The notes below the pieces were generated by a model. The model had not been told where the DNA came from. It ran no database searches and was given only the letters and a program-made list of their open reading frames with translations. Both the position numbers and the translations under genes were made by a program. Source: Bolinopsis microptera (taxonomy: Eukaryota > Ctenophora > Tentaculata > Lobata > Bolinopsidae). Taken from it: a DNA stretch of 64,000 nt. This document shows positions 1 through 36,610 of this stretch, in pieces; the stretch's first letter is position 1; the number at the start of each line of letters is the position of its first letter. The stretch lies in contig NC_087079.1 of the NCBI RefSeq assembly GCF_026151205.1, positions 3,111,730 to 3,175,729 on the forward strand, given 5' to 3'.

Positions 1-3000
1 CTGAGAGCAGGTAGAGTGAAGGTTACACTAAAACAATATTCAACCTGAGAGCAGGTAGAGTGAAGGTTACACTAAAACAATATTCAACCTGAGAGCAGGT
101 AGAGTGAAGGTTACACTAAAACAATATTAAACCTGAGAGCAGGTAGAGTGAAGGTTACACTAAAACAATATTCAACCTGAGAGCAGGTAGAGTGAAGGTT
201 ACACTAAAACAACATTAAACCTGAGAGCAGGTAGAGTGAAGGTTACACTAAAACAATATTAAACCTGAGAGCAGGTAGAGTGAAGGTTACACTAAAACAA
301 TATTCAACCTGAGAGCAGGTAGAGTGAAGGTTACACTAAAACAATATTAAACCTGAGAGCAGGTAGAGTGAAGGTTACACTAAAACAATATTAAACCTGA
401 GAGCAGGTAGAGTGAAGGTTACACTAAAACAATATTAAACCTGAGAGCAGGTAGAGTGAAGGTTACACTAAAACAATATTAAACCTGAGAGCAGGTAGAG
501 TGAAGGTTACACTAAAACAATATTAAACCTGAGAGCAGGTAGAGTGAAGGTTACACTAAAACAATATTAAACCTGAGAGCAGGTAGAGTGAAGGTTACAC
601 TAAAACAATATTAAACCTGAGAGCAGGTAGAGTGAAGGTTACACTAAAACAATATTAAACCTGAGAGCAGGTAGAGTGAAGGTTACACTAAAACAATATT
701 AAACCTGAGAGCAGGTAGAGTGAAGGTTACACTAAAACAATATTAAACCTGAGAGCAGGTAGAGTGAAGGTTACACTAAACAATATTAAACCTGAGAGCA
801 GGTAGAGTGAAGGTTACACTAAAACAATATTAAACCTGAGAGCAGGTAGAGTGAAGGTTACACTAAAACAATATTAAACCTGAGAGCAGGTAGAGTGAAG
901 GTTACACTAAAACAATATTAAACCTGAGAGCAGGTAGAGTGAAGGTTACACTAAAACAATATTCAACCTGAGAGCAGGTAGAGTGAAGGTTACACTAAAA
1001 CAATATTCAACCTGAGAGCAGGTAGAGTGAAGGTTACACTAAAACAATATTAAACCTGAGAGCAGGTAGAGTGAAGGTTACACTAAAACAATATTAAACC
1101 TGAGAGCAGGTAGAGTGAAGGTTACACTAAAACAATATTCAACCTGAGAGCAGGTAGAGTGAAGGTTACACTAAAACAATATTAAACCTGAGAGCAGGTA
1201 GAGTGAAGGTTACACTAAAACAATATTCAACCTGAGAGCAGGTAGAGTGAAGGTTACACTAAAACAATATTAAACCTGAGAGCAGGTAGAGTGAAGGTTA
1301 CACTAAAACAATATTAAACCTGAGAGCAGGTAGAGTGAAGGTTACACTAAAACAATATTAAACCTGAGAGCAGGTAGAGTGAAGGTTACACTAAAACAAT
1401 ATTAAACCTGAGAGCAGGTAGAGTGAAGGTTACACTACAACAATATTAAACCTGAGAGCAGGTAGAGTGAAGGTTACACTAAAACAATATTCAACCTGAG
1501 AGCAGGTAGAGTGAAGGTTACACTACAACAATATTCAACCTGAGAGCAGGTAGAGTGAAGGTTACACTAAAACAATATTCAACCTGAGAGCAGGTAGAGT
1601 GAAGGTTACACTAAAACAATATTAAACCTGAGAGCAGGTAGAGTGAAGGTTACACTACAACAATATTAAACCTGAGAGCAGGTAGAGTGAAGGTTACACT
1701 AAAACAATATTAAACCTGAGAGCAGGTAGAGTGAAGGTTACACTAAAACAATATTAAACCTGAGAGCAGGTAGAGTGAAGGTTACACTAAAACAATATTC
1801 AACCTGAGAGCAGGTAGAGTGAAGGTTACACTAAAACAATATTCTACCTGAGAGCAGGTAGAGTGAAGGTTACACTAAAACAATATTAAACCTGAGAGCA
1901 GGTAGAGTGAAGGTTACACTACAACAATATTCAACCTGAGAGCAGGTTGAGTGAAGGTTACACTAAAACAATATTCAACCTGAGAGCAGGTAGAGTGAAG
2001 GTTACACTAAAACAATATTAAACCTGAGAGCAGGTAGAGTGAAGGTTACACTACAACAACATTAAACCTGAGAGCAGGTAGAGTGAAGGTTACACTAAAA
2101 CAATATTCTACCTGAGAGCAGGTAGAGTGAAGGTTACACTAAAACAATATTCTACCTGAGAGCAGGTAGAGTGAAGGTTACACTACAACAATATTAAACC
2201 TGAGAGCAGGTAGAGTGAAGGTTACACTAAAACAATATTCTACCTGAGAGCAGGTAGAGTGAAGGTTACACTACAACAATATTCAACCTGAGAGCAGGTA
2301 GAGTGAAGGTTACACTAAAACAATATTAAACCTGAGAGCAGGTAGAGTGAAGGTTACACTAAAACAATATTCAACCTGAGAGCAGGTAGAGTGAAGGTTA
2401 CACTACAACAATATTAAACCTGAGAGCAGGTAGAGTGAAGGTTACACTAAAACAATATTCAACCTGAGAGCAGGTAGAGTGAAGGTTACACTACAACAAT
2501 ATTAAACCTGAGAGCAGGTAGAGTGAAGGTTACACTAAAACAATATTCAACCTGAGAGCAGGTAGAGTGAAGGTTACACTAAAACAATATTAAACCTGAG
2601 AGCAGGTAGAGTGAAGGTTACACTAAAACAATATTAAACCTGAGAGCAGGTAGAGTGAAGGTTACACTAAAACAATATTAAACCTGAGAGCAGGTAGAGT
2701 GAAGGTTACACTAAAACAATATTAAACCTGAGAGCAGGTAGAGTGAAGGTTACACTAAAACAATATTAAACCTGAGAGCAGGTAGAGTGAAGGTTACACT
2801 AAAACAATATTAAACCTGAGAGCAGGTAGAGTGAAGGTTACACTAAAACAATATTAAACCTGAGAGCAGGTAGAGTGAAGGTTACACTAAAACAATATTA
2901 AACCTGAGAGCAGGTAGAGTGAAGGTTACACTAAAACAATATTAAACCTGAGAGCAGGTAGAGTGAAGGTTACACTAAAACAATATTAAACCTGAGAGCA

Positions 3001-6000
3001 GGTAGAGTGAAGGTTACACTAAAACAATATTCAACCTGAGAGCAGGTAGAGTGAAGGTTACACTAAAACAATATTAAACCTGAGAGCAGGTAGAGTGAAG
3101 GTTACACTAAAACAATATTAAACCTGAGAGCAGGTAGAGTGAAGGTTACACTAAAACAATATTAAACCTGAGAGCAGGTAGAGTGAAGGTTACACTAAAA
3201 CAATATTAAACCTGAGAGCAGGTAGAGTGAAGGTTACACTAAAACAATATTAAACCTGAGAGCAGGTAGAGTGAAGGTTACACTAAAACAATATTCAACC
3301 TGAGAGCAGGTAGAGTGAAGGTTACACTACAACAATATTCAACCTGAGAGCAGGTAGAGTGAAGGTTACACTAAAACAATATTCAACCTGAGAGCAGGTA
3401 GAGTGAAGGTTACACTAAAACAATATTCAACCTGAGAGCAGGTAGAGTGAAGGTTACACTAAAACAATATTCAACCTGAGAGCAGGTAGAGTGAAGGTTA
3501 CACTACAACAATATTAAACCTGAGAGCAGGTAGAGTGAAGGTTACACTAAAACAATATTCAACCTGAGAGCAGGTAGAGTGAAGGTTACACTAAAACAAT
3601 ATTAAACCTGAGAGCAGGTAGAGTGAAGGTTACACTAAAACAATATTCAACCTGAGAGCAGGTAGAGTGAAGGTTACACTAAAACAATATTAAACCTGAG
3701 AGCAGGTAGAGTGAAGGTTACACTAAAACAATATTCAACCTGAGAGCAGGTAGAGTGAAGGTTACACTAAAACAATATTCAACCTGAGAGCAGGTAGAGT
3801 GAAGGTTACACTAAAACAATATTCAACCTGAGAGCAGGTAGAGTGAAGGTTACACTAAAACAATATTCAACCTGAGAGCAGGTAGAGTGAAGGTTACACT
3901 AAAACAATATTCAACCTGAGAGCAGGTAGAGTGAAGGTTACACTAAAACAATATTCAACCTGAGAGCAGGTAGAGTGAAGGTTACACTAAAACAATATTA
4001 AACCTGAGAGCAGGTAGAGTGAAGGTTACACTACAACAATATTCAACCTGAGAGCAGGTAGAGTGAAGGTTACACTAAAACAATATTCAACCTGAGAGCA
4101 GGTAGAGTGAAGGTTACACTAAAACAATATTAAACCTGAGAGCAGGTAGAGTGAAGGTTACACTAAAACAATATTAAACCTGAGAGCAGGTAGAGTGAAG
4201 GTTACACTAAAACAATATTAAACCTGAGAGCAGGTAGAGTGAAGGTTACACTAAAACAATATTCAACCTGAGAGCAGGTAGAGTGAAGGTTACACTAAAA
4301 CAATATTAAACCTGAGAGCAGGTAGAGTGAAGGTTACACTAAAACAATATTAAACCTGAGAGCAGGTAGAGTGAAGGTTACACTAAAACAATATTAAACC
4401 TGAGAGCAGGTAGAGTGAAGGTTACACTAAAACAATATTCAACCTGAGAGCAGGTAGAGTGAAGGTTACACTAAAACAATATTCAACCTGAGAGCAGGTA
4501 GAGTGAAGGTTACACTAAAACAATATTCAACCTGAGAGCAGGTAGAGTGAAGGTTACACTAAAACAATATTCAACCTGAGAGCAGGTAGAGTGAAGGTTA
4601 CACTAAAACAATATTCAACCTGAGAGCAGGTAGAGTGAAGGTTACACTAAAACAATATTCAACCTGAGAGCAGGTAGAGTGAAGGTTACACTAAAACAAT
4701 ATTCAACCTGAGAGCAGGTAGAGTGAAGGTTACACTAAAACAATATTAAACCTGAGAGCAGGTAGAGTGAAGGTTACACTAAAACAATATTAAACCTGAG
4801 AGCAGGTAGAGTGAAGGTTACACTAAAACAATATTCAACCTGAGAGCAGGTAGAGTGAAGGTTACACTAAAACAATATTAAACCTGAGAGCAGGTAGAGT
4901 GAAGGTTACACTAAAACAATATTAAACCTGAGAGCAGGTAGAGTGAAGGTTACACTAAAACAATATTCAACCTGAGAGCAGGTAGAGTGAAGGTTACACT
5001 AAAACAATATTCAACCTGAGAGCAGGTAGAGTGAAGGTTACACTAAAACAATATTCAACCTGAGAGCAGGTAGAGTGAAGGTTACACTAAAACAATATTC
5101 AACCTGAGAGCAGGTAGAGTGAAGGTTACACTAAAACAATATTCAACCTGAGAGCAGGTAGAGTGAAGGTTACACTAAAACAATATTCAACCTGAGAGCA
5201 GGTAGAGTGAAGGTTACACTAAAACAATATTCAACCTGAGAGCAGGTAGAGTGAAGGTTACACTAAAACAATATTCAACCTGAGAGCAGGTAGAGTGAAG
5301 GTTACACTAAAACAATATTCAACCTGAGAGCAGGTAGAGTGAAGGTTACACTAAAACAATATTCAACCTGAGAGCAGGTAGAGTGAAGGTTACACTAAAA
5401 CAATATTCAACCTGAGAGCAGGTAGAGTGAAGGTTACACTAAAACAATATTCAACCTGAGAGCAGGTAGAGTGAAGGTTACACTAAAACAATATTAAACC
5501 TGAGAGCAGGTAGAGTGAAGGTTACACTAAAACAATATTAAACCTGAGAGCAGGTAGAGTGAAGGTTACACTAAAACAATATTAAACCTGAGAGCAGGTA
5601 GAGTGAAGGTTACACTAAAACAATATTAAACCTGAGAGCAGGTAGAGTGAAGGTTACACTAAAACAATATTAAACCTGAGAGCAGGTAGAGTGAAGGTTA
5701 CACTAAAACAATATTAAACCTGAGAGCAGGTAGAGTGAAGGTTACACTAAAACAATATTAAACCTGAGAGCAGGTAGAGTGAAGGTTACACTAAAACAAT
5801 ATTAAACCTGAGAGCAGGTAGAGTGAAGGTTACACTAAAACAATATTAAACCTGAGAGCAGGTAGAGTGAAGGTTACACTAAAACAATATTAAACCTGAG
5901 AGCAGGTAGAGTGAAGGTTACACTAAAACAATATTAAACCTGAGAGCAGGTAGAGTGAAGGTTACACTAAAACAATATTAAACCTGAGAGCAGGTAGAGT

Positions 6001-9000
6001 GAAGGTTACACTAAAACAATATTAAACCTGAGAGCAGGTAGAGTGAAGGTTACACTAAAACAATATTAAACCTGAGAGCAGGTAGAGTGAAGGTTACACT
6101 AAAACAATATTCAACCTGAGAGCAGGTAGAGTGAAGGTTACACTAAAACAATATTCAACCTGAGAGCAGGTAGAGTGAAGGTTACACTAAAACAATATTA
6201 AACCTGAGAGCAGGTAGAGTGAAGGTTACACTAAAACAATATTAAACCTGAGAGCAGGTAGAGTGAAGGTTACACTAAAACAATATTAAACCTGAGAGCA
6301 GGTAGAGTGAAGGTTACACTAAAACAATATTCAACCTGAGAGCAGGTAGAGTGAAGGTTACACTAAAACAATATTAAACCTGAGAGCAGGTAGAGTGAAG
6401 GTTACACTAAAACAATATTAAACCTGAGAGCAGGTAGAGTGAAGGTTACACTAAAACAATATTAAACCTGAGAGCAGGTAGAGTGAAGGTTACACTAAAA
6501 CAATATTAAACCTGAGAGCAGGTAGAGTGAAGGTTACACTAAAACAATATTCAACCTGAGAGCAGGTAGAGTGAAGGTTACACTAAAACAATATTAAACC
6601 TGAGAGCAGGTAGAGTGAAGGTTACACTAAAACAATATTAAACCTGAGAGCAGGTAGAGTGAAGGTTACACTAAAACAATATTCAACCTGAGAGCAGGTA
6701 GAGTGAAGGTTACACTAAAACAATATTAAACCTGAGAGCAGGTAGAGTGAAGGTTACACTAAAACAATATTAAACCTGAGAGCAGGTAGAGTGAAGGTTA
6801 CACTAAAACAATATTCAACCTGAGAGCAGGTAGAGTGAAGGTTACACTAAAACAATATTCAACCTGAGAGCAGGTAGAGTGAAGGTTACACTAAAACAAT
6901 ATTAAACCTGAGAGCAGGTAGAGTGAAGGTTACACTAAAACAATATTAAACCTGAGAGCAGGTAGAGTGAAGGTTACACTAAAACAATATTCAACCTGAG
7001 AGCAGGTAGAGTGAAGGTTACACTAAAACAATATTCAACCTGAGAGCAGGTAGAGTGAAGGTTACACTAAAACAATATTAAACCTGAGAGCAGGTAGAGT
7101 GAAGGTTACACTAAAACAATATTAAACCTGAGAGCAGGTAGAGTGAAGGTTACACTAAAACAATATTAAACCTGAGAGCAGGTAGAGTGAAGGTTACACT
7201 AAAACAATATTCAACCTGAGAGCAGGTAGAGTGAAGGTTACACTAAAACAATATTCAACCTGAGAGCAGGTAGAGTGAAGGTTACACTAAAACAATATTA
7301 AACCTGAGAGCAGGTAGAGTGAAGGTTACACTAAAACAATATTAAACCTGAGAGCAGGTAGAGTGAAGGTTACACTAAAACAATATTCAACCTGAGAGCA
7401 GGTAGAGTGAAGGTTACACTAAAACAATATTAAACCTGAGAGCAGGTAGAGTGAAGGTTACACTAAAACAATATTCAACCTGAGAGCAGGTAGAGTGAAG
7501 GTTACACTAAAACAATATTAAACCTGAGAGCAGGTAGAGTGAAGGTTACACTAAAACAATATTCAACCTGAGAGCAGGTAGAGTGAAGGTTACACTAAAA
7601 CAATATTAAACCTGAGAGCAGGTAGAGTGAAGGTTACACTAAAACAATATTAAACCTGAGAGCAGGTAGAGTGAAGGTTACACTAAAACAATATTAAACC
7701 TGAGAGCAGGTAGAGTGAAGGTTACACTAAAACAATATTCAACCTGAGAGCAGGTAGAGTGAAGGTTACACTAAAACAATATTAAACCTGAGAGCAGGTA
7801 GAGTGAAGGTTACACTAAAACAATATTAAACCTGAGAGCAGGTAGAGTGAAGGTTACACTAAAACAATATTAAACCTGAGAGCAGGTAGAGTGAAGGTTA
7901 CACTAAAACAATATTCAACCTGAGAGCAGGTAGAGTGAAGGTTACACTAAAACAATATTCAACCTGAGAGCAGGTAGAGTGAAGGTTACACTAAAACAAT
8001 ATTAAACCTGAGAGCAGGTAGAGTGAAGGTTACACTAAAACAATATTAAACCTGAGAGCAGGTAGAGTGAAGGTTACACTAAAACAATATTCAACCTGAG
8101 AGCAGGTAGAGTGAAGGTTACACTAAAACAATATTAAACCTGAGAGCAGGTAGAGTGAAGGTTACACTAAAACAATATTAAACCTGAGAGCAGGTAGAGT
8201 GAAGGTTACACTAAAACAATATTAAACCTGAGAGCAGGTAGAGTGAAGGTTACACTAAAACAATATTCAACCTGAGAGCAGGTAGAGTGAAGGTTACACT
8301 AAAACAATATTAAACCTGAGAGCAGGTAGAGTGAAGGTTACACTAAAACAATATTAAACCTGAGAGCAGGTAGAGTGAAGGTTACACTAAAACAATATTA
8401 AACCTGAGAGCAGGTAGAGTGAAGGTTACACTAAAACAATATTAAACCTGAGAGCAGGTAGAGTGAAGGTTACACTAAAACAATATTAAACCTGAGAGCA
8501 GGTAGAGTGAAGGTTACACTAAAACAATATTAAACCTGAGAGCAGGTAGAGTGAAGGTTACACTAAAACAATATTAAACCTGAGAGCAGGTAGAGTGAAG
8601 GTTACACTAAAACAATATTCAACCTGAGAGCAGGTAGAGTGAAGGTTACACTAAAACAATATTCAACCTGAGAGCAGGTAGAGTGAAGGTTACACTAAAA
8701 CAATATTCAACCTGAGAGCAGGTAGAGTGAAGGTTACACTAAAACAATATTAAACCTGAGAGCAGGTAGAGTGAAGGTTACACTAAAACAATATTAAACC
8801 TGAGAGCAGGTAGAGTGAAGGTTACACTACAACAATATTAAACCTGAGAGCAGGTAGAGTGAAGGTTACACTAAAACAATATTAAACCTGAGAGCAGGTA
8901 GAGTGAAGGTTACACTAAAACAATATTAAACCTGAGAGCAGGTAGAGTGAAGGTTACACTACAACAATATTAAACCTGAGAGCAGGTAGAGTGAAGGTTA

Positions 9001-10383
9001 CACTAAAACAATATTAAACCTGAGAGCAGGTAGAGTGAAGGTTACACTAAAACAACATTAAACCTGAGAGCAGGTAGAGTGAAGGTTACACTAAAACAAT
9101 ATTAAACCTGAGAGCAGGTAGAGTGAAGGTTACACTAAAACAATATTAAACCTGAGAGCAGGTAGAGTGAAGGTTACACTAAAACAATATTAAACCTGAG
9201 AGCAGGTAGAGTGAAGGTTACACTACAACAATATTAAACCTGAGAGCAGGTAGAGTGAAGGTTACACTAAAACAATATTAAACCTGAGAGCAGGTAGAGT
9301 GAAGGTTACACTAAAACAATATTAAACCTGAGAGCAGGTAGAGTGAAGGTTACACTAAAACAATATTAAACCTGAGAGCAGGTAGAGTGAAGGTTACACT
9401 AAAACAATATTAAACCTGAGAGCAGGTAGAGTGAAGGTTACACTACAACAATATTAAACCTGAGAGCAGGTAGAGTGAAGGTTACACTAAAACAATATTA
9501 AACCTGAGAGCAGGTAGAGTGAAGGTTACACTAAAACAATATTAAACCTGAGAGCAGGTAGAGTGAAGGTTACACTAAAACAATATTAAACCTGAGAGCA
9601 GGTAGAGTGAAGGTTACACTACAACAATATTCAACCTGAGAGCAGGTAGAGTGAAGGTTACACTACAACAATATTAAACCTGAGAGCAGGTAGAGTGAAG
9701 GTTACACTACAACAATATTAAACCTGAGAGCAGGTAGAGTGAAGGTTACACTAAAACAATATTAAACCTGAGAGCAGGTAGAGTGAAGGTTACACTACAA
9801 CAATATTAAACCTGAGAGCAGGTAGAGTGAAGGTTACACTACAACAATATTAAACCTGAGAGCAGGTAGAGTGAAGGTTACACTAAAACAATATTAAACC
9901 TGAGAGCAGGTAGAGTGAAGGTTACACTACAACAATATTAAACCTGAGAGCAGGTAGAGTGAAGGTTACATTAAAACAATATTAAACCTGAGAGCAGGTA
10001 GAGTGAAGGTTACACTAAAACAATATTCAACCTGAGAGCAGGTAGAGTGAAGGTTACACTACAACAATATTAAACCTGAGAGCAGGTAGAGTGAAGGTTA
10101 CACTAAAACAATATTAAACCTGAGAACAGGTAGAGTGAAGGTTACACTACAACAATATTAAACCTGAGAGCAGGTAGAGTGAAGGTTACACTAAAACAAT
10201 ATTAAACCTGAGAGCAGGTAGAGTGAAGGTTACACTACAACAATATTAAACCTGAGAGCAGGTAGAGTGAAGGTTACACTAAAACAATATTCAACCTGAG
10301 AGCAGGTAGAGTGAAGGTTACACTAAAACAATATTCAACCTGAGAGCAGGTAGAGTGAAGGTTACACTAAAACAATATTAAAC
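1..10383 (-). repeat. 44-bp satellite in MEGF8 intron 26, copied from the exon 26 donor junction
   Basis: About 236 head-to-tail copies of a 44-bp unit run from the left edge to the edge of exon 26. Read on the minus (transcribed) strand, each unit is the last 27 nt of exon 26 (codons for CNLHSTCSQ) followed by the first 17 nt of the intron (gtttaatattgttttag). Each unit therefore carries a donor (CAG|gtt) and, at the join, an acceptor-like ttttag|TGT. Common variants are ttaaac, ttcaac or ttctac and ctaaaac or ctacaac on the plus strand, all in the intron-derived part. The array is not closed on the left. Confidence 0.97.
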
Positions 10384-10925
10384 CTGAGAACAGGTAGAGT
10401 GAAGGTTACACAAGCAGTCCTGGTCACAGTTAGGCCCAGTGTAACCTAGATCACACTCACACAGGTTGTACTCGCTACACTTGCCGTGTTTGCAGGTGGA
10501 ACTCGTGTCACACCTGCGGTGGTAACAGTTTTATCGAGCCATGTATTTACAATTGAAATAGGGTCATTATATCGGGCATTGTTTTTAGAAGTGTCACTGA
10601 TAATAACTTGGGTATTTTACCCCTTTTACAAATTAATATTTGCTTGATTTTCGCTGAACTTGACAAACAGTGTTTAGTTGTACCACAAGTCACTAAAAAT
10701 CTCAAACTAACTAACTTCAACCGACAATCTCCTCCCAACTCACTTGGACTCACAGACCCCATCGTGGTCCTGATAACCCAGTTTACACTGACAAGTAAAC
10801 CCGTCCTCTGTATCTATACACTCGGCGTTGTCATGGCAGTGGTGGAGTCCCAGGGCACACTCGTTAACTGCTGGACACTCCTGGTAGTACCAGCTCAGCG
10901 AGCAGTAACCCTCCTCAAAGTTACC
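10384..10925 (-). CDS. MEGF8: MEGF8 exons 25-26: calcium-binding EGF and laminin-type EGF
   Basis: Exon 25 finishes the last PSI (GNFEEGYCSLSWYYQEC) and encodes a calcium-binding EGF starting VNECALGLHHC with DTEDGFTCQC, the usual D/N-x-E-C and aromatic-residue pattern. Its donor splits the AAG codon (phase 2), joining CESK to CDTSSTC in exon 26. Exon 26 encodes CKHGKC and CECDLGYTGPNC and ends in CNLHSTCSQ, the start of a laminin-type EGF. The next exon must lie left of position 1, beyond at least 10.4 kb of satellite. Confidence 0.87.
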
Positions 10926-13900
10926 CTGACAGAGCATGTTAGTGTGCTTCTAGATTCAAAGTTACCCTGACAGAGCATGTTAGTGTGCTTCTAGATTCAA
11001 AGTTACCCTGACAGAGCATGTTAGTGTGCTTCTAGATTCAAAGTTACCCTGACAGAGCATGTTAGTGTGCTTCTAGATTCAAAGTTACCCTGACAGAGCA
11101 TGTTAGTGTGCTTCTAGATTCAAAGTTACCCTGACAGAGCATGTTAGTGTGCTTCTAGATTCAAAGTTACCCTGACAGAGCATGTTAGTGTGCTTCTAGA
11201 TTCAAAGTTACCCTGACAGAGCATGTTAGTGTGCTTCTAGATTCAAAGTTACCCTGACAGAGCATGTTAGTGTGCTTCTAGATTCAAAGTTACCCTGACA
11301 GAGCATGTTAGTGTGCTTCTAGATTCAAAGTTACCCTGACAGAGCATGTTAGTGTGCTTCTAGATTCAAAGTTACCCCGACAGAGCATGTTAGTGTGCTT
11401 CTAGATTCAAAGTTACCCTGACAGAGCATGTTAGTGTGCTTCTAGATTCAAAGTTACCCTGACAGAGCATGTTAGTGTGCTTCTAGATTCAAAGTTACCC
11501 TGACAGAGCATGTTAGTGTGCTTCTAGATTCAAAGTTACCCTGACAGAGCATGTTAGTGTGCTTCTAGATTCAAAGTTACCCTGACAAATCATGTTAGTG
11601 TGCTTCTAGATTCAAAGTTACCCTGACAGAGCATGTTAGTGTGCTTCTAGATTCAAAGTTACCCTGACAGAGCATGTTAGTGTGCTTCTAGATTCAAAGT
11701 TACCCTGACAGAGCATGTTAGTGTGCTTCTAGATTCAAAGTTACCCTGACAGAGCATGTTAGTGTGCTTCTAGATTCAAAGTTACCCTGACAGAGCAGGT
11801 TAGTGTGCTTCTAGATTCAAAGTTACCCTGACAGAGCATGTTAGTGTGCTTCTAGATTCAAAGTTACCCTGACAGAGCATGTTAGTGTGCTTCTAGATTC
11901 AAAGTTACCCAGACAGAGCATGTTAGTGTGCTTCTAGATTCAAAGTTACCCTGACAGAGCATGTTAGTGTGCTTCTAGATTCAAAGTTACCCTGACAGAG
12001 CAGGTTAGTGTGCTTCTAGATTCAAAGTTACCCTGACAGAGCATGTTAGTGTGCTTCTAGATTCAAAGTTACCCTGACAGAGCATGTTAGTGTGCTTCTA
12101 GATTCAAAGTTACCCTGACAGAGCATGTTAGTGTGATTCTAGATTCAAAGTTACCCTGACACAGCATGTTAGTGTGCTTCTAGATTCAAAGTTACCCTGA
12201 CACAGCATGTTAGTGTGCTTCTAGATTCAAAGTTACCCTGACAGAGCATGTTAGTGTGCTTCTAGATTCAAAGTTACCCTGACAGAGCATGTTAGTGTGC
12301 TTCTAGATTCAAAGTTACCCTGACAGAGCATGTTAGTGTGCTTCTAGATTCAAAGTTACCCCGACAGAGCATGTTAGTGTGCTTCTAGATTCAAAGTTAC
12401 CCTGACAGAGCATGTTAGTGTGCTTCTAGATTCAAAGTTACCCTGACAGAGCATGTTAGTGTGCTTCTAGATTCAAAGTTACCCTGACAGAGCATGTTAG
12501 TGTGCTTCTAGATTCAAAGTTACCCTGACACAGCATGTTAGACGTTAGTGTGCTTCTAGATTCAAAGTTACCCTGACAGAGCATGCTAGTGTGCTTCTAG
12601 ATTCAAAGTTACCCTGACAGAGCATGTTAGTGTGCTTCTAGATTCCCTGACAGAGCATGTTAGTGTGCTTCTAGATTCAAAGTTACCCTGACAGAGCATG
12701 TTAGTGTGCTTCTAGATTCAAAGTTACCCTGACAGAGCATGTTAGTGTGCTTCTAGATTCAAAGTTACCCTGACAGAGCAGGTTAGTGTGCTTCTAGATT
12801 GTATCTTAGAGGTGGTAAATTTGGGTAGACAACACAGAATTGAAAGACGGATAAGCTTGTAAACATTCCTCCTGAACAAATACCTGGGTGAGGTTGAGAC
12901 TGCAGAGTGACTGCAGACCTACCTTAATACAAGTACCGGAGTGACGTGAGGTTGAGACTCCAGACCTACCTTAATACAAATACCTGGGTGAGGTTGAGAC
13001 TCCAGACCTACCTTAATACAAGTACCGGAGTGAGGTTGAGACTCCAGTCCGCACCACCCACACCCGCGCACACTCTGACACTCTCTGCACGTGCGGTACA
13101 TCTCGCACTCGTCACAGTGGGACGATCCACCCCTGAAACAAGTTCCGTGAGATTTAATATTAATTGATAAAATCCCTATTTTATTATACTAGATTCGTCT
13201 TTATTTCGTCTTTATTTCTGAAGCAGACTGATATGGTAGATAAGCTTCCAAAAATCCAAAACTAATAATAATTAATCAATACCCAAATATTAACATATTA
13301 TCTACATTAATTCACAAGATATTGTGTTAAAGCACACAAAAGGACTCAGACTCACGGGGTAACAAATCCGTTGTACCACACGGAGCACTCCCCAAACGGG
13401 TAGAGAGCCACCTGTACGTTTATGGAGAAACACCGTCCCAGCGCCTTGCACCAAACACAGTCGTCCAGCCTGGGGTCACGTGATTATTTAGAGTCACGTG
13501 ATTAGTAAGGGTCACGTGGTTTGTTAGGGTCGCGTGATTAGTTCAAATAATTTAGATATTTGGTGGGTAGAGATTTTATGACACAACTCTAATATACTAT
13601 TATATTGCCAGGCAAACCTTCCGGTTTTTAAAAAGATAGAGATTAATGTTGGTATTGAAACATAATTAAACTGCTATAATCACTGATTAGTACCGAAATA
13701 ACTTTATAACTAGGAATCACTAAGTTACTAAATGTGTCAGGAAAATGAACTGACTCAGTGCAGGAGTAGCAGGAAGACTGTCGAGAGCAGGTATCCGGGC
13801 AGCGGTATCTCGATCTGATCGCTTCCTCGTATCTCCCACGTCTGTGGCATCTGAAGTTAAGCCACTCACAGTTACCGTCCTGAGGGAGGGGTAGTGTCTT

Positions 13901-15567
13901 ATCTGGCAAAACTGTGGTTAATTAAAACTGTGGTTAACTAAAACTGTGGTTAACTAAAACTGTGGTGAATTAAAACTGCGAATAACTAAAACTGCAGTTA
14001 AATAAAACTGTGGTAAACTAAAACTATGGTTAACTAAAACTGTGGTTAACTAATTACTAAAACTGTGATTAACTAAAACTGTGGTTTAAAAACTGTGGTA
14101 AACTAAAACTGTGGTTAACTAAAACTGCAGTTAAATAAAACTGTGGCAAACTAAAACTTTGGTTAATTAAAACTGTGGTTAACTAAAACTGTGGTTAACT
14201 AAAACTGTGGTTAAATAAAACTGTGGTTAACTAAAACTGTGGTTAACTAAAACTGCAGTTAAATGAAACTGTGGTAAACTAAAACTGTGGTTAGTTAAAA
14301 CTGTGGTAAACTAAAACTCACTCCAGCACAAGCAGAACAAGTGATACGTTCGTCACACTTGGTACAGGAATCAAAGTCAGTTATCAGGTACCCTGCTCTG
14401 AACTTCTGATTGGTGGAGAAGGTGTGCACTGATCTTAGCTGGCATCTGGGAGGAAGGAGGGTGTTACATGCCACATACCAAAGCTTTCGACTAGTGGGTT
14501 TATAGTATATTATGTACGGATACTTCTAGTTAGAGTAACCAGGGCCAGGGTTTGAGAATTATACCGTATACGTCGAAGTGTCACTAACCGTGCTAAAGAA
14601 GAGTGATGACGTCACTAACCATGATATAGAAGAAAGATGACGTCACTAACCGTGATAAAGAAGAGTGATGACGTCACTAACCGTGATATAGAAGAGTGAT
14701 GACGTCACTAACCGTGATATAGAAGAAAGATGACGTCACTAACCGTGATAAAGAAATAAGAAGAGTGATGACGTCACTAACCGTGATATAGAAGAGTGAT
14801 GACGTCACTAACCGTGATATAGAAGAAAGATGACGTCACTAACCGTGATAAAGAAGAGTGATGACGTCACTAACCGTGATAAAGAAGAGTGATGACGTCA
14901 CTAACCGTGATATAGAAGAGTGATGACGTCACTAACCGTGATAAAGAAGAGTGATGACGTCACTAACCGTGATATAGAAGAGTGATGACGTCACTAACCG
15001 TGATATAGAAGAGTGATGACGTCACTAACCGTAATATAGAAGAGTGATGACGTCACTAACCGTGATATAGAAGAGTTCCAGCCACACAGTTGATCAGTAA
15101 GACACCCCAGACAGGTTCCAAAGTGAGTACAGGAACCGTTCCTGTAGGGCACTAACACGTCCTGATAATGTATACCGTTACTGTGAGATACCTTCAGTTT
15201 TACTGTCATTTAGAGATGGCCACTAGAATTGAACAATAAGAGAGTAAAATCACATCCAGTAAACGAGGTAACGGGGGAAAACAAAGGGTTATCTTGTTAT
15301 TCTGTCCATCACGCAATGACGTTATAAACCGACGGATAACGTCACGTGACCTCCTTATGACGTCACGTGACCTCCTAATGACGTCACATGACAGTGTACC
15401 TCGTTGAGTATCTCCTCGGAGTGGTAGTCAGATCCCCCACCGTCCCACATGATCGTCATGTTACTCCTCTGTTGCTGATCATTAATGTACTGACTTAACA
15501 CTGCTTTTATGTATACCTGGTGTGAAACAATATTACCATTGTAAGAAGGAGGGGGCGGGGCGGCGAA

Positions 15568-15605
<38 letters not shown>

Positions 15606-18600
15606 GACATAACATTCCTTATGATATTAATCATCTTATTTTCATCATTACATCCCCCCATCATTAATCTGCAGTTTGATTTCAATAGACCATTTTACAT
15701 ACATAACTTTATCATAATACGACCAAACTATTCACTAAAACGACTTGACAAATATAAAGAAATAATAATAAAAGAAATTTTAATCTTAAATATGTAGAAA
15801 GAATAAAAAAGCGACTCGACAATCTTCTCGACAATAATGTCACTAAAAATTCACTAAAAAAGTTCTCACAATTTTGTATCTAGGCAGCGAGTAACGGTTC
15901 TCCTTTTGTATCTTCCGGCTGGCATTCCTGAACACTAACTCTGCGTCACGTGACGTCCTGCCCACGTGCAGATCAACTAAGCCGTCCGTGTACTGGACTC
16001 GTAGATTGTACTGCGGAATTTGGGGGAGGGATAGTTATTAGGCCAATAATTAAATACTTGAACAAACTGTTTGTTTTAATTGTCACATAGGTTTATTGAA
16101 ATATCGTGACAAAAAGTGGCAAAATGTACTACAAGAACTCAAGAACTGTGCGAAGAAAATATCAATGCAGTGATCATAGTTCAAATAATTGACAATCATA
16201 TTCTAGACTAAAAGTGTAAACTGAAGGTTAAAACACTAAAAACCCATTCTACGCAACTAAACTCCAGAGAGATCTCCTCTCTGTGGGGTGGTCACACAAT
16301 GTGATGGCTTTGTTAAGTTGTTAAAGCTTAACAAATCTCAACATAGGTGACATAGGTGGATAAACTGTAAGATATTAGATAAACCTTGTTGGAATATTCC
16401 CTGTGCGTGCTGTTGATGTAGCCCCGGAGGTGTCCGTAGTATCTCTTATCTTCCCCCGTATCTCTTGTATGTGTCTGGTATTGTGAAATAATGGTCACGT
16501 GATCTAATTACTTACTCTCAAATTGGGTCTTATTTAAAAGCCTGAATATCAACCTTAAATCAGCACGTCCTCGCTTATTTTCTTTGTCGCACTCACGCAG
16601 TAGCAATCTCAAACTATTATCAACTTTAAATATTATTGAACTTAGGGAAAAGTAACCAATGTTAAAGATCATTACATGTTTGGAGTAGAGCAGGTCGACA
16701 CGTGCTGACTTGACAATAGACACGTGATCAGGGAGGTCCCAGTTAACCGGGTCCACTACTTTCACCCAGTGTAGTCCTGGAGGCATATCGTCTGTCTGGG
16801 AGGATCTTAATTAGTCAGTTAATTACTAATTAGTCAATAAGGTGATTAGATAATTGGTCAGTAATTAAACCGGGGTTCAGGGGACAGTGTTTACCTGGCA
16901 CTGTATAGGTGAAGTTAGCAGGGTTCCCTCAGGACCCCACCATGGTTCTGGAGATTGTACTCCACAATAGTCGCCACTGTTCCGGGATCTACAGTTTCCG
17001 TCTTGTACACACCTGTTATTATTAGAAAGTGAATATAAATAAAATCTAAAATAAATAATATTAAGGTTTTAATAATTGACGGTCGGAGGGAAAGAAAACG
17101 CAAAGATATCAAATTTAATCCAAATAATGACATAGATAAGGTGACCTTTGGAAAATCTAATTAGTCGCTGCCCCCGCTAATTGTTGCATCATTGACTCTT
17201 ATAGACGCCAACTCCTCACCAGTATAAACAAATAAACAAAATATAAGTATCCTAATAAATCCTGTACGCCGTGATGATATGATAGATTTTAGGAAGTATT
17301 GTGTGATATTAATACCAGTTAGTTATATTTCTACGTAATGGAAGTGGAAAACCGAGTTCCGGTCGGCGGGTCCGATAGGGCGGGTCAGACAGCACCTGGG
17401 GGAGTGACAAATGCACCACCTCAGAGGGAACAGCTGTGAAACACTGGAGCTAGAATTAAGGGCTGTCAAACACAATGATGCTAAATTAACATAATATAAT
17501 GATGATAGATTAACACAGCGTGATAGAGAGGAACAATAACTAGTCAACGGAGTGCGAAGGTAGCAGGTGAGAGGTCTAAAACAACGGACAGGACATTATT
17601 TATAGCTGGGAGCTGGAGCTGGGCAAAGAGAGTTTCTAGTTTGTTCTATCGAAGGACGGTTGGTGGCGGACGACTAAGGAACCTGTTACTCTGGTTGAGT
17701 TCTGGTTGGCCTGGAGAGTTGTCGATAGTTGACATAATGTTATTGGTCACGGCACATTTAAGTTAGGAGTTTCAGCGGGACATAATGCAGGTGTAACTGT
17801 AATTGTAGACAAGCATTGACGGAGTTTCAGCGGGACATAATGCAGGTGTAACTGTAACTGTAGACAAGCATTGACGGCACATTTAAGTTAGGAGTTTCAG
17901 CGGGACATAATGCAGGTGTAACTGTAATTGTAGACAAGCATTGACGGAGTTTCAGCGGGACATAATGCAGGTGTAACTGTAACTGTAGACAAGCATTGAC
18001 GGCACATTTAAGTTAGGAGTTTCAGCGGGACATAATGCAGGTGTAACTGTAATTGTAGACAAGCATTGACGGAGTTTCAGCGGGACATAATGCAGGTGTA
18101 ACTGTAACTGTAGACAAGCATTGACGGCACATTTAAGTTAGGAGTTTCAGCGGGACATGATGCAGGTGTAACTGTAATTGTAGACAAGCATTGACGGAGT
18201 TTCAGCGGGACATGATGCAGGTGTAACTGTAATTGTAGACAAGCATTGACGGCACATTTAAGTTAGGAGTTTCAGCGGGACATGATGCAGGTGTAACTGT
18301 AATTGTAGACAAGCATTGACGGAGTTTCAGCGGGACATGATGCAGGTGTAACTGTAATTGTAGACAAGCATTGACATTTAAATTAGGAGTTTCAGCGGGA
18401 CATGATGCAGGTGTAATTGTAGACAAGCATTGACGGCCGACTTTATTATAGTGTGTCTGAATAAAGTAGGTTTGTACTGATTGTATTTCATATAATAATG
18501 TTAGTTATATCGTCTTAGAACACGTTTATTAATTGTTAGGCCCTGAACGTCAGTGTCTAATAATCGCCACTGTTGGTATCAATTAAGCAGGAATACCCAC

Positions 18601-21600
18601 TGCTAACAAGCCACGTACCACTCACAACCAGCTAGTGCACACTCGGTGCACCTTGTTAGTCTGTAGCACACACTGCACTGGTTCATCTGCTGACGGCATC
18701 TCTTGACTGGTCGGCACTTCTTGCCGCACCGTACGCAGTGCTGTAACGCGTTACACTCGTCATATGCGGCACTGCTTACTTCACCTCCCTGTAGGTAGTA
18801 ATGCGTCAACAATTATAGAATTATACGGTAGCTGTGTTGTGAACTTTACTATAAAATTAAAATGTCTTAAATGAAACTGTTAATTACATCGCATTTAATC
18901 TCATCAGTTCGTCGGACGTAGGACAGATAAATCAAAAATCCTACGTCATAATAGTGCCCAATTAATAGCCGAATAAAGGCAGAATCTAATGGAATTGTAA
19001 CATTCACGTCAGAACGAACCACTGTTTTAAAGTTTTAACACACCTTTTTATCCTTGTTCGGAATGGAAGAGCAATCCTCCCTGGGCGGATAATATAACAG
19101 CACATCGTTCATGGGCTGTCCGTTAAACCCCCCTACAACAACCATACTGTCTCTGTATCTAGCTGCCGCGTGCGCGTATCTCAAGCTGGCTGTCACGTGG
19201 CTCTCGTCTTTGGGGAGCGGGGACACCCAGTCCATGCAACCCAGGTCGAAAACTATAGTGTCCGGGTTAAAACACTGCTCGACATTCTGGTTTTCTTTGT
19301 TGCCACCTGACAAAGGGAAGTTTAGGTTAGAGTTAACGAAATAAATAACGATACAATTAATGAAACAACAATGTCCTCTCGGTGCAATCCATTTGTCAAG
19401 GTTGGTTAAATATTTATTTGGAAATTGGATTATGGATGGAATTAGTACGATGATTTTGGTCCATCGTTTAGAGAAATAGTAAACAGAGTTAGAATTAACC
19501 AGATTCTTAGTTGTCACATTGACTTACCGAATACAACCATAAATCTGCCCAGTTTGACTGCTGTGTGAAAAACAATACCAGGAATTTGGGTAGTGATTTT
19601 AAGCTTCGACCATACCTGCAAGGGGTAATACAGTTATTAATATATCAAGCTATAATCAACAAATGTATTAGAACTTGAAGAAGTTATTTCCAATTTGCTA
19701 TGCCAATTGGTTAAAACACTGTTCCACAGTAGGCTTTACTTTGGGTAAATTGGCAACTGTTATTTTTTTATTTTTTTATTATATCAGGGCATTATCGACA
19801 AATTACACCCGAAGATATTGTTTAAACTACCTAGGAAGGGAGCACCCAATTTTTTCCTCAAAATTAATTTAATCTTTAAAAAAATGAGAACTGCTAATCG
19901 GTAATACGTAAAGCTACTAATCATTGTTCCTGTCACAACCCGTGAATCCATGATAGAGGCTGTAACAATGCAGTCTGAAGCTCCACGATGGTCCGTGCAC
20001 CCTGCTTATCTCCCCATAAACCCTGTAAACCGTCCCAACTAACAAGCTATTCACTAGAACATCCCCTGTCTGTGAAGCTCTCTGCATCCAGAAAGCAGCT
20101 ACTCTTCCTTATATGGGCATCACGTGGCTACGCTTGCCCTACTGCTCCTTGTATCGGGGGTTGTCTGGACACAAGAACCCTTACCAGGCTGATAATAACA
20201 TGCGGGCAGATGTAGACAGGGCTGTTGTCTGGAGATATAGGTAGTATGTCTTCAGTCACACTTGTCAGAACCGCCCCTCAGGAGCTTATTTAATATCAGC
20301 ATCAGACCAAAGGTCAGATCAGTGCTCAGTGGTTTGTTTTTCGAGAGCTCCATTGAGGTATGGAGCCGTTAGTTTTATTTCTCAGTTCTTCTATATGGAC
20401 TGAGTGCGTGGAACTTTTTTGTCTAAAATTTGGAGGTTATTTTCTTTTCGGACACATTTAAATTATATTAGATCAAGGCGAACTAAATAGTTGTTAGGGC
20501 CACGCTTTTTTAACTCGTACGTTTTTATCTGTAGATCTGTGTAGTATTTGTTTAATAAGTTCATGAAAACTTTTGTTATCTATTTCGTTACACGATGTAA
20601 CATTTAAACGGAAGTAGTTTTTTCTCAAGCCCATTGAGAGTCATATTTACTGTCTAAGCGCAGTAACAATAGGTTTTTGAATAATAATATAAGAATTTGT
20701 TTATTCCACGCCAGCAATCATTCGTCGATAATGCCCATTTTACAAGCTTATATAAGTCACCTTGTTCTTTATACTGAAGAGTAAAACATCCGAACTCTTG
20801 TCGTAGCGTACATGAGGTATTGGAACAAAACCTGTGTGAGAAACAAGGTTAGTACTTTAGTAGTAGTGTGAGAAACAGTGTTAGTACTTTAGTAGTATCC
20901 AGCATATCCACCTGTTTGAGAGGGTTAGTACTTTAGTAGTATTCAGCATATCCATATTCCATATCCGGCCCCAATTGTAATGATATCATGGTCCCACCGC
21001 TGTGTTCCGGGTTATCCGACATAAAGTTTACAAATGTTAGCATTGATCATATGCTCTAACAAAATATAAGCTCACCTCCGAACACGACAATACTTCCTGA
21101 GTCCTCATCATACACAGCAGAGTGACCGTACCGTCTTATCTCAGAACACTTGTAGATAGTGGGGGTCACCAGACCCCATACAGGACTCCGGGAGGATAGG
21201 TCCATGGTGTGAAGTGAGCAGGAATAGTGGTCCGTGTCTCCGCCAGTAAGACCTGTCAAGTGATTAGATTATTATATATTAGCTGATTAGTAATAAATAG
21301 GAGATCGTAAATTTATCGGTAAATTTAAAAAACATACTGAATATTTTGGATTACCGCCCCAAAAAATTTAACAAAGAATGTTAATTGTAACCCGCCCTAT
21401 GATGAATGTAACCCGCCCTATGATGAATGTACTACGGCAGACTTTTCTAAAAATACATTTCGTTATCCGTATATTTGATTACAATTAAACGACTAAAAAC
21501 CTTATGAGACCCGAGAACACTTTTCAGGTGGTCAAAATGAATATTATTCAAGTAATAAAAACAAATTTAAAAATGTTATATGGGTCAATCAATAATATTA

Positions 21601-24600
21601 TCATGTGATTATGACTGATTTCAACACATGATAATATTTCAAAAACGTAATTATTAATAAACAATTAATAAGATCGTAGAAAATACTCAAACCAAATTAT
21701 AAATTATTTAATAGTAATCTTAAACCAGGATCATGTTTTTGCAACTCCTATCAGCCCTGCTAGCCCTCCATTGCACCATCCCCACTATATCGGCTTCAGA
21801 GGGATCCTCAGCAAAGGCACTGCAGTTCGGTACCACCTTTGGTGACTACGTAAAGTTTTTCCCTGATATGAGCCAGGTCAAAGACTCCCTAACGGTGTGT
21901 TCATGGGTAAAGAAACAGCTGACTGGCCCCTACAGATCCTGGTTTAGCTACAAAACGTCCACACACGAGATCCTAATATCAGATGCTGGTTACTACAACT
22001 ACATTCACAACAGCGGCAATTACCAGTCAAGTGCTATTACTGTAACAGTACCTCTTGATACGTGGAGTCATCAATGTCAAAGCTGGTCAACAAGCACTGG
22101 GACAATGAAGACATACTATAATGGTACTCTCATAGGGTCTAAAAGTATTTCCTCAGCTCCATTAAAAGAGGGGGTGTCATTACTCTGGGACACAATGCTG
22201 CAGCGTAGAACAAGTAGAAGTATTCGGTGGGCAGCTGATGAAACTAGATATCTTCGGAAAAGTGCTCAGTTCAGAAGAAATTGCAGATATATACAACGCT
22301 GGGAGATGTTCCGATGTAGAAAAGAAGCACCAGGAAGTCAGGTTCATCACCTGGGAGAGCATCCTGAGTCAGGACAAAACTGGTAATGTCACAGAAGTGG
22401 ACTCTGGGTGTCCTGCTGAAGAAGAAGAGGAGGAAGAAGAGGAAGAAAAAGAAGTTTGAGTGTCACAGTATTTGGGACATACTCTATGATCAGACCTACT
22501 TCAACCAAACACTCGCCGCCGAGAAACTGACCGAGCTAAATGCTAACTGGAACATGTTGGGTAAGTAGATAATTACCATGAGTAGGTTAAGTTCATGTCT
22601 TATTATTTTTAGAGATTTTCCTTCGTTCTGGTTAGACTACGACTGGATACTGGTGCAGGGGAGGTTAGCCGTATTTGTTGTGACACGTGATAAAGAGTCT
22701 TGTTTGATTGGCCAATTATACTGGAAGCTGACTGGTTAATTACTGGCACGTGTCATAGTAAATAGAGTTCAAATCCGGTCTTCCTGACCGTGTCTAGATA
22801 TATTGAACGCGAACAATTTTTCTTGTACCCTAGAAATAAACTAATAATAAGTTTACTTGCAGATTATTTCGTCGGCACACCGATCACGGAGAATATCATA
22901 GCTTATTTTAAGGCTTACCATCCTATGCCGGCAGAGAAAGATGACAGCAGCTAGAGGAAAGAAATCAAGGGGAAGATTAACTCATCGGTACGTTGATTTT
23001 AATAACAGCACAATAACTTATTATTAACTAGGTTTGCTGATTAGACATTTTAAGATTATTAATTACTATCAATATTATTGGTTATCCCTCCGTCTCCGGC
23101 CGGTAAAATGTATGATATTACTAATCAACTTCTCTTCAGGTCCTACTACAAAGTACACTGTTCTCCTTACAGCTGCTTGGTTACTAATTTGGAGACGAGG
23201 ATCTAATTTTTCTGATACGTATCATGGGATTAGTCTGATGTCAGAGCTTTTGTTGCCTTAATGTTGCCTTAATGTTGCCTTAATGTTGTCTTAATGTTGT
23301 CTTATCGTTTGTTGTCTTATTGGTGTTTGTTGCGTTAACGTTGGCTTAATGTTGTCTTATTGTTGTCTTAATATTGTCTTATTGTTGTCTTAATGTTGTC
23401 TTAATGTCCCATCGGTGATTGTTCAAGTGGCCGAGCTTTTTGAACCCATTTCCATTATAACAGTAACCCGTTTTAGAACATTCTTAATAATTATCATTAG
23501 AATAGTTATACTGACCCTATATTTTTGAACAATAATTTTACTATCAATTATTGGCATTTTGATGTCAGGAATTTGTTTTACCAACCGATTGTCATTGCAG
23601 TAACTAATTTTAGAACATTTTGAACATCAATTTATTGACCCCTATAATACTATTCAGTTGAGTGCCATTTTAGAACATTTTTGATACGTAATTATTTTAA
23701 TAATGACTCTTATTTGATTTAGAGCTAATTTTAGCTAATACTAGTATCTACTATCAACGTATCATAAATATAAAATAAAGATACGTTTTTAAAAATTTGA
23801 ATCTTAGTCTTACATTTAAAGTATGGTTAGTGAATTTATTTACGATCTATTTACGATAATAATTATTTACGATAATTTATTACGATAATAATATGTTATA
23901 GGGAACTTAGAGATTTTTCAACATGAATGCTTTCATCAATTGTGATTTGAAACGATTTAAATTTTATTCGAAATCGTATCTTTTATTGGTTCAAATATAT
24001 AACTGGGTTAAATGGGGGTCAGAAATGAGATTGGTGGCAGATAATTCAACTTTATCTCGGAAAAAAATATTTGTGCGGCCAACACTAGCTTCCAGCATTA
24101 TATTTGGAAATAATGTAATATTATGTGTTCTACAAGGGAAGGTGTCCCAAAAAGTGATCAGTTTTAATAACTCGGAAACAGTTATGAAATAATTATGACA
24201 GGGTTACGACATGCAGTCGAATCCCTATGCCACAACCAAAAACCAAATCGTATTTACATATTTAACAACCATGCCATAACTGTGTCACAACATGGTTATG
24301 AAATGGTTAAATAAAGTTTACCCAGCCAAGAGGGAGACATCTTCAACATTTGAATTTAAAAGTTTAAATGTTATTATTGAATGGAAAAAATACTACAATT
24401 CTGTTGGATTTGTCCAAATAAATGCTAAGATTACTTTTACTTCTTTTCTCTTGAACAGACAGGAATTAAGTGACACGATATTGTGAGAACAAAACGTTAA
24501 TATAACCCTAACCATAATAACGTAATTGACAATAATCTTTGATGAATCCCCCTCCCCCTTTTTCAACAACGCCCAAAAGGCAAAAACTTCAAGACCCCCC

Positions 24601-31836: not shown

Positions 31837-31894
31837 TGATGATGAAATAGAATATACTGTTCTGCAACTGACATTGCCTGATTAAATGTGGGAC

Positions 31895-36100: not shown

Positions 36101-36610
36101 TTCAATCGAGATGGATCACTTACATTTTCATGATCTGGAAAACAGCATTCCTTTGCCTCTTCTACCACAGTATCAGCGTCCTTTGATGTTGTTTTTAGGC
36201 ATCTTGTACATAGATATTCATCATCGCTTTCACTCAGTTTCTTGTATTCTGTTTTACTGATCTTCAAGCAAGTCCTATGATGCCATGAGTAACATCTTTC
36301 GCACAGCAAGCCATCGTCATACTCAGTCACTTTAAGATCGCATATTGGACAAGTCTCGGTAAGTGTCCTCAAGTCCTTGATTGCTTGAGAGACAGTTTTA
36401 TTTGTTTCTTCTGGGTCTGTACATTGATCTGGATTAGTAAGCTTACTAGAATCGGTATTTTTGTTCTCAACTGATTTAGATCTGGTTTTCATCATTTCCA
36501 ACCCAAAAACGGGGACCACCACTGTTTTCCGAGTCGATTACCAGCAGGAGCTGTAGCTTACCGCTGACAGTCCCTACTGGATGCGGGTCTCCTTAACAGT
36601 AGTGGATCCG
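33200..36610 (-). mobile_element. R2-like retrotransposon insertion, approximate extent
   Basis: The 5' side extends past the ATG to about 36610 with GC-richer sequence unlike the flanking AT-rich DNA. The 3' side is unclear between 33300 and 33100. I could not identify a target-site duplication or a poly-A tail with confidence. Confidence 0.55.
33304..36495 (-). CDS. R2/NeSL-type non-LTR retrotransposon polyprotein with PHD-type finger
   Basis: An intact 1063-codon frame from the ATG at 36495 (upstream codons in frame have no earlier ATG before a stop). N-terminus: a C4HC3 PHD-like finger (CPICDLKVTEYDDGLLC, CYSWHHRTC, CTRC). Middle: reverse transcriptase with motif A VDAENAF (Asp 470), TTQGDPPAM, and the catalytic YADD at 557-560. 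C-terminus: a zinc knuckle CTCGQKYSANHALIC, then RLDIS and FFDVRVF, consistent with the PD-(D/E)XK restriction-like endonuclease that R2-type elements use to nick target DNA. No apurinic-type endonuclease is present. The frame is complete, so the copy is recent and may be active. It lies in the same orientation as MEGF8, upstream of it. Confidence 0.85.
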   Translation of the reverse strand: MMKTRSKSVENKNTDSSKLTNPDQCTDPEETNKTVSQAIKDLRTLTETCPICDLKVTEYDDGLLCERCYSWHHRTCLKISKTEYKKLSESDDEYLCTRCLKTTSKDADTVVEEAKECCFPDHENVSDPSRLKLGPWNSWEVLTKCEEIYGVIVKWKRNIFLLPSGAAGKAFIEEMTKVANNFTSGSAMESVTITLLMIMPSLLLQKPSKRSKAKEHTEVLKRRLVLWQAGKLEELLREGQEIQRRLGKGKHKHGHVERVFTRLMMKGKVSAAMRWIGENATRILEPTPDVIKVLKEKHPKASPASKGSCLSGPARRVEPVIFNSIDGELIRQAAKRVQGAAGPSGMDADAWKRLLCSKQFGKKCEDLCNAIAGIARKLCVRNLDPTLLTSLTACRLVPLDKKPGVRPVGIGEVLRRIIGKTVMTLLQKDLVGATAPIQVCAGLQGGVEAAVHAARDCFEDPETEAIILVDAENAFNLLNREAALNNMNIVCPEVATYITMNTYRMPARLFIAGGDEHLFSEEGTTQGDPPAMGFYACGTIPLIDAGNIERKVTQIWYADDSAAGGKLEEIRKWWDNLFIKGPLFGYNPKSSKTWVIVKPEHEEKARTLFPDVNVTSIGRRYLGSFIGTDQGKEAFIEEKVQEWCRDLKQLSDIASREPQIAYSAYMYGLSKRWNYVCRTTPGVADRLTPLEQVTRDEFIPAIINRLFSCTDEIRNIMALPPRYGGLGIPVMMEMADREYNFSCRATKPLKEAILEQIDNYTEDWRHSKGVKTEITTERNLFYRQKQAEIRQELESTPLAKLMFQLAAEKGASAWLTALPLKEYGYLMNKQQFSDAIALRYNLNLKDCPKTCTCGQKYSANHALICKLGGYVSLRHNSLRDTFAELMRTVKCKGVQTEPVLLPVDGLELPRGTVLGDQARLDISARSIWNASERAFFDVRVFHAPAPSNACKPIPAMYLSHENEKKRCYNARVLEVEKGSFTPLVFSTSGGMGGEAERLVKKLASKMEYHTGQRYSDAVGYIRKRLRFEILRTTVISLRGDRGARKNIVDINSLDLNLEPQGQG

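Follow-up and report, generated by a model that had tools for sequence, protein, structure and literature searches.

A 302-unit exon-edge minisatellite in a MEGF8 orthologue of the ctenophore Bolinopsis microptera

Does a tandem repeat whose every unit joins the end of an exon to the start of an intron serve as a series of miniature exons, or is it a minisatellite that happened to grow across an exon edge? The question is raised by a 64,000-nt stretch of the Bolinopsis microptera genome (the window; contig C8, NC_087079.1, C8:3111730-3175729, in an assembly of 264.65 Mb and 232 contigs), in which Tandem Repeats Finder calls a 44-nt tandem array as a single array filling positions 1-10411. Read on the minus strand, the unit consists of 27 nt of exon end, TGTAACCTTCACTCTACCTGCTCTCAG, followed by 17 nt of intron, GTTTAATATTGTTTTAG. 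The 27 + 17 layout given in the initial annotation, with its exon-derived part in frame, is therefore borne out, and window 10384-10410 is the last part of the true exon that was copied. This array (array A; Table 1) runs across the left edge of the window, spanning 13.3 kb between position 10411 and a point 2.9 kb beyond that edge, and comprises 302 units in addition to the true exon edge. The units represent 15 haplotypes; 301 are 44 nt long, and the sole 43-nt unit lies at window 749.

Table 1. Coordinates of array A, its host gene, and other exon-edge arrays. Positions are those of the window unless a contig or locus is named; a slash marks the splice site.
Feature	Position	Strand	Description	Basis
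Array A	1..10383, and beyond the left edge to C8:3108811 (= L009:7082)	minus	44-nt units	
MEGF8 orthologue, in-window part	10384..31881	minus		by eye and homology
True exon, source of array A	10384..10513	minus	EGF-like, ends CNLHSTCSQ, donor CAG/GTTTAA	
Preceding EGF exon	10744..10925	minus	starts GGTAACTTTGAGG; array B derives from its 5' edge	boundaries by hand
Array B	10915..12800	minus	41-nt units, ~46 copies, 3' splice site, branch-like CACTAAC, CTCTGTCAG/GGTAACTTTGA	
Array C	L009:3743-4148, left of window		46-nt units, 3' splice site	
Array D	12909..13047	minus	42-nt units, ~3 copies, 5' splice site CTTGTATTAAG/GTAGGT	
Array E	14580..15076	minus	31-nt units, ~16 copies, 5' splice site TATATCACG/GTTAGT	
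L048 exon-edge arrays			32-nt x35 (donor); 95-nt x9.7 and 102-nt x2.7 (acceptors)	by eye
L050 exon-edge array			37-nt x3.1 (acceptor)	by eye

The assembled length and unit count of array A are provisional because of a second contig, C91 (positions 1-28401, L012-L014; 28.4 kb), which consists mostly of the same 44-nt repeat and came from a DNA search whose listed matches were all in C91, array A itself not being among them. Its quality is low, with homopolymer A runs (2183 and 3701) and many dropped bases, and the longest run of identical units is 32 in this error-laden contig compared with 14 in C8. C91 is probably poor-quality sequence from the array A locus, or a longer allele of it. The locus must have either an allele longer than the one assembled or reads that were left unplaced. 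The same contig makes collapse of array A in the assembly a possibility to be kept in mind.

To place the array in its gene, we relied on homology and on reading by eye. Minus-strand open frames on either side of array A encode EGF-like, PSI, kelch, and laminin-EGF modules, and a search with the draft protein returned 31 proteins at E <= 1e-10. Eight homologues with 33-35% identity were used for comparison, seven of them named MEGF8 (from sea spider, snails, fishes, and crab) and one a snail protein without a name; the remaining matches were mostly laminin beta-1. With three of the eight (P0001, P0003, and P0004) as queries, tblastn matches are spread over the region and largely keep their order, although repeated modules also hit one another. 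The resulting MEGF8 orthologue, with its signal-peptide-like start and its CUB, EGF, kelch, and PSI modules, runs on past the left edge of the window, and its far 5' part is a rough model only.

The next real exon after array A starts with GQGICDDC at window -3036. The junction CNLHSTCSQ/GQGICDDC aligned ungapped in seven of the eight homologues, and P0008 has a one-residue gap there. The CNLHSTCSQ block is single-copy in all eight, and extra blocks, when sought, were found in none of these encoded homologues, which places array A inside one intron. This intron measures ~13.4 kb, of which ~134 nt are non-array (coordinates by hand), and the exons that flank it join in phase 0 according to the hand reading and the homologue alignment. 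Two automated gene models put the splice sites elsewhere; the junction used here thus relies on the hand reading together with the homologue alignment. The one-copy homologues are consistent with a regular splicing pattern that array A would leave undisturbed.

The window holds further features outside this intron. A 22-nt array of ~190 copies (25187-29390) has minus-strand open frames of up to 1415 aa, which are probably a by-product of the unit sequence. A 1077-aa minus-strand open frame (33304-36537) resembles retrotransposon proteins, with PHD-like and reverse-transcriptase-like stretches by eye, and a 603-aa minus-strand frame (47713-49521) has XK-related relatives (10 hits, in the ENA source only; best identity 78%; PF09815 in 2 of the 10). 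On the minus strand at 50943-51988, a 278-nt tandem repeat (3.8 copies), adjoined by a 14-nt array of ~58 copies, carries in its copies a coiled-coil-like exon of ~105 nt with an acceptor and an AAT/GTAAGT donor by eye, and is a better candidate than the 44-nt array for a real tandem exon duplication.

We then asked whether the units carry usable splice signals. Sites were scored with matrices learnt from 90 exons and junctions that were predicted, not observed, in eight loci, and branch points were assessed by eye. All 302 units keep the donor GT and 301 of them keep the AG, and the unit donors fall at the 21st-28th percentile of predicted donors, that is, weak to middling. Acceptors as strong as real ones, as would be expected of cassette exons or microexons, were not found in the units: the TTTTAG before the 27 nt has a scant pyrimidine tract and scores -1.9 to -2.8, below all 90 predicted acceptors, and ranks at the 36th-51st percentile among other AGs, like a random AG. 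The real acceptor downstream of the array is at the 79th percentile. The 17-nt gap between exon pieces is also shorter than an ordinary animal intron.

The edges of the array suggest where this AG comes from. At the far end of the array from the source exon, the last copy ends in ATTGTTTTTAATTG, which is plain intron, and passes into the plain intron sequence GTTTTTAATTG, whereas the internal joints, point variants aside, read ATTGTTTTAG/TGTAACC. The AG in front of the 27 nt thus looks joint-made, and TTTTAG looks like a duplication joint between the intron and exon pieces. The proposal of a miniature exon with splice signals in every unit holds for exon origin, reading frame, and donor, and fails at the acceptor.

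These data bear on the reading in which the units serve as in-frame microexons, so that a share of transcripts would cross the array by ~61-nt introns and add CNLHSTCSQ blocks to the EGF-like domain. Inclusion would keep the frame, as the unit part is 27 nt and its flanks are in phase 0, and the intact GT and AG and the middling donors agree with such use; in addition, PMC2812944 describes human exon-intron-boundary minisatellites that can alter splicing. However, the unit acceptors lie below every predicted one, the eight homologues each hold a single block, and each added block would bring two cysteines into a disulphide-bonded fold. We consider this use of the units very unlikely.

The initial annotation had also contrasted a nearly constant exon part with a variable intron part, offering purifying selection, gene conversion with the true exon, or amplification history as the cause. 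When each cell of the array A units and the true exon was compared with the consensus, 6 of 8181 cells were changed in the exon part and 154 of 5150 in the intron part. The few exon-part changes noted near 1947 and 10125 were confirmed at 1948 and 10126; three more lie left of the window (-2583, -2539, and -2500), giving 5 of 302 units with an exon-part change, and the true exon itself differs from the consensus at 10390. By hand reading, two of the three distinct exon-part changes are synonymous, a number too small for a test. Intron-part changes are present in 138 of the 302 units, in agreement with the description of very many variable units, and affect six sites plus a 1-nt deletion, with a 1-nt insertion in the leftmost, partial copy. 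Of the 154 changes, 140 fall at just two sites (107 and 33).

Counted per position as the initial annotation had proposed, the exon part is less variable by cells and weakly so by sites, with 3 of 27 variable sites in the exon part against 6 of 17 in the intron part (Fisher P 0.068), or 3 of 27 against 4 of 15 without the two common sites (P 0.23). With site frequencies kept and positions randomised, 1.5% of draws reached 154 cells in the 17 nt (P 0.015). In simulations of neutral growth at three mutation rates, the observed share was reached in 21%, 12%, and 1.3% of 131, 149, and 150 runs, respectively. The third setting (median 7 variable sites and 65.5 changed cells; 2 of 150 runs reaching the share) comes closest to array A itself, with its 9 variable sites and 160 changed cells. 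Together, the randomisation and the simulations place the contrast in array A somewhat beyond chance.

Array A is one of five arrays that lie across exon-intron edges in the MEGF8 gene, A, D, and E at donors and B and C at acceptors. The splice sites in the other four are good, with acceptors at the 58th (B) and 48th (C) percentiles and donors at the 63rd (D) and 66th (E). Variable sites in the exon and intron parts number 0/11 and 6/30 in array B and 0/15 and 5/31 in array C, neither difference being significant, and 4/36 and 0/6 in array D, which is too small and likewise not significant. Array E leans in the opposite direction, with 5/15 exon sites and 1/16 intron sites (P 0.08 by sites and 0.12 by cells). 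Pooling the five arrays gave 12/104 exon and 18/100 intron sites (P 0.24). The same gene has a 16-nt array of ~25 copies (window 13908-14318) that nearly fills one intron, beginning at the donor and stopping about five bases short of the acceptor.

The exon part of the units could in principle be held constant by purifying selection or by a constraint that splicing places on decoy exons. The difference in changed cells, the position-randomised P value, and the same lean in arrays B and C speak for it. On the other hand, neither the site counts of array A nor the pooled counts reach significance, array E leans the other way, also without significance, and no route is known by which selection could reach a single copy among 302. 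The five arrays give this explanation no consistent support, and we regard it as very improbable.

Amplification history fits best of the three proposed causes, as the commonest variant clusters and two sites make up most of the contrast. Neighbouring units agree at the commonest variant site with a frequency of 0.651, compared with 0.542 after shuffling, a value reached in none of 5000 shuffles; the second and third commonest variants showed no clustering beyond the shuffles. Haplotypes per 50-unit bin number 9, 5, 7, 3, 2, and 7, with 2 in the last bin of 2 units, and the low numbers suggest that one stretch of the array looks recently homogenised. A single base provides a further indication: the true exon reads TGT, whereas 300 units read TGC and 1 reads TTC, so that 301 of 302 units differ from the exon. 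Amplification from an early copy predicts this, whereas a steady supply of converted bases from the exon does not. If the true exon did convert the units, this would account for the exon-identical part being the least variable and for the one unit with the exon's TGT (its change lies at 10126, six units away from the edge of the exon), but that base argues against routine conversion, and this already disfavoured explanation is the least likely of all.

To see whether exon-edge arrays occur elsewhere, six laminin-like loci were inspected by eye, and 4 clear straddlers were found among 21 arrays with a unit of at least 17 nt (Table 1). Other arrays have units with a splice site and little or no exon (L048, 23-nt x116; L049, 29-nt x11). 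One of these loci, L048 (C1:281001-291000), thus carries three clear exon-edge arrays and a 116-copy acceptor-bearing array. Two-copy exon-edge duplications were also seen by eye in L046 near 1007-1040 (donor) and in L052 near 8690-8800 in gene orientation (acceptor); these are possible first steps of exon-edge arrays.

Whether tandem arrays prefer exon edges was assessed by two counts. In the MEGF8 core, counted by hand, 5 of 11 arrays straddle an exon edge compared with 2.2 expected (P 0.046, for arrays chosen after seeing them); this count left out a poly-G stretch, a 12-nt array within an exon, and arrays below the size and copy limits, and had one exon start entered 3 nt off. With an automated gene model, an edge lay inside 5 of 46 arrays compared with 5.8 expected (P 0.72), and 12 of 46 arrays were within 10 nt of an edge compared with 7.4 expected (P 0.048), 4 of 50 arrays having been dropped as wholly exonic. 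The automated model missed four straddlers known by hand and so cannot decide on an edge preference. In a sample of kinase loci, 8 of 30 had a repeat that satisfied the size and copy limits; most of the kinase matches listed run full-length through a single open frame and are therefore poor material for exon edges.

Arrays of this kind have been described before. In amphioxus, exon-intron boundaries duplicated in tandem in the manner of minisatellites are known as mirages and are reported in Adh3, the globins BflGb6 and BflGb9, PGBD5, and troponin C (PMC3087553, PMC3902484). According to these reports, mirage units lie across the boundary at a donor or an acceptor and AG/GT signals ride in many of the repeats; the authors report undisturbed regular splicing and lengths that differ between haplotypes. 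In array A, likewise, the unit spans the boundary, and AG and GT recur in nearly all units, though in a weak acceptor context. As for the concerted evolution looked for inside a mirage, boundary units apart, array A has clustering at the commonest site only and an exon-edge copy that differs at one base from 301 of 302 units. Units in Adh3 measure 10-72 bp, and the two BflGb6 haplotypes have 6 and 3 units, each of 150-160 bp, compared with 302 units and 13.3 kb here. Array A matches the description of a mirage, with far more copies than BflGb6, and differs in gene, in animal, and in its weak acceptor, which is a repeat joint.

Variable internal tandem repeats (minisatellites) are also described at exon-intron boundaries in human segmental-duplication genes (PMC2812944). 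There, units average ~30 bp and some are spliced out as new introns; with ~4 repeats on average and documented alternative transcripts, they differ from array A and its 302 units. Tandem duplication of AG/GT proto-splice sites as a route to intron gain (internal gene duplication), as cited in PMC3087553, resembles array A in that a tandem copy brings its own splice signals; it differs in that array A lies within an existing intron.

Taken together, we consider it very probable that array A is an exon-edge minisatellite that is spliced out whole, with its units as decoys and the low variation of the exon part coming mainly from amplification history. Neutral growth of a repeat is the most likely account of it, more so than a store of very small functional exons. 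In this scenario, the 27-nt exon end and ~16-17 nt of the following intron would have been duplicated in tandem, and unequal exchange or replication slippage may then have expanded them to 302 extra copies. The first donor, that of the true exon, and the distant real acceptor would still work, removing the whole array as one 13.4-kb intron, so that the units would be decoys whose function is slight or nil. Less variation in the exon part would mainly reflect chance, the two common variants that rose as the array grew lying by accident in the 17 nt. The four further splice-junction arrays in the MEGF8 gene, at donors and acceptors, and those in laminin-like loci speak for exon-edge growth. Against it stand a contrast nominally unlikely by chance (P 0.015; 2 of 150 simulations), the lack of exon-part substitutions in arrays B and C as well (0/11 and 0/15 sites), the unclustered second and third commonest variants, and the other splice sites chosen by two automated models.

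Array A is thus real and striking, and of an already known kind; the miniature-exon reading is half right. Should it instead conceal 302 in-frame microexons of 27 nt, all phase 0, for which we see little chance, low-level splicing would yield MEGF8 proteins whose EGF-like domains are extended by varying numbers of CNLHSTCSQ blocks, and new exons in this genome could be drawn from exon-edge minisatellites as raw material. With five exon-edge arrays, one of them holding 302 extra copies, the gene offers a natural test of how the spliceosome chooses one site among hundreds of near-identical decoys, and of whether repeats of this kind contribute to the gain of introns or exons.
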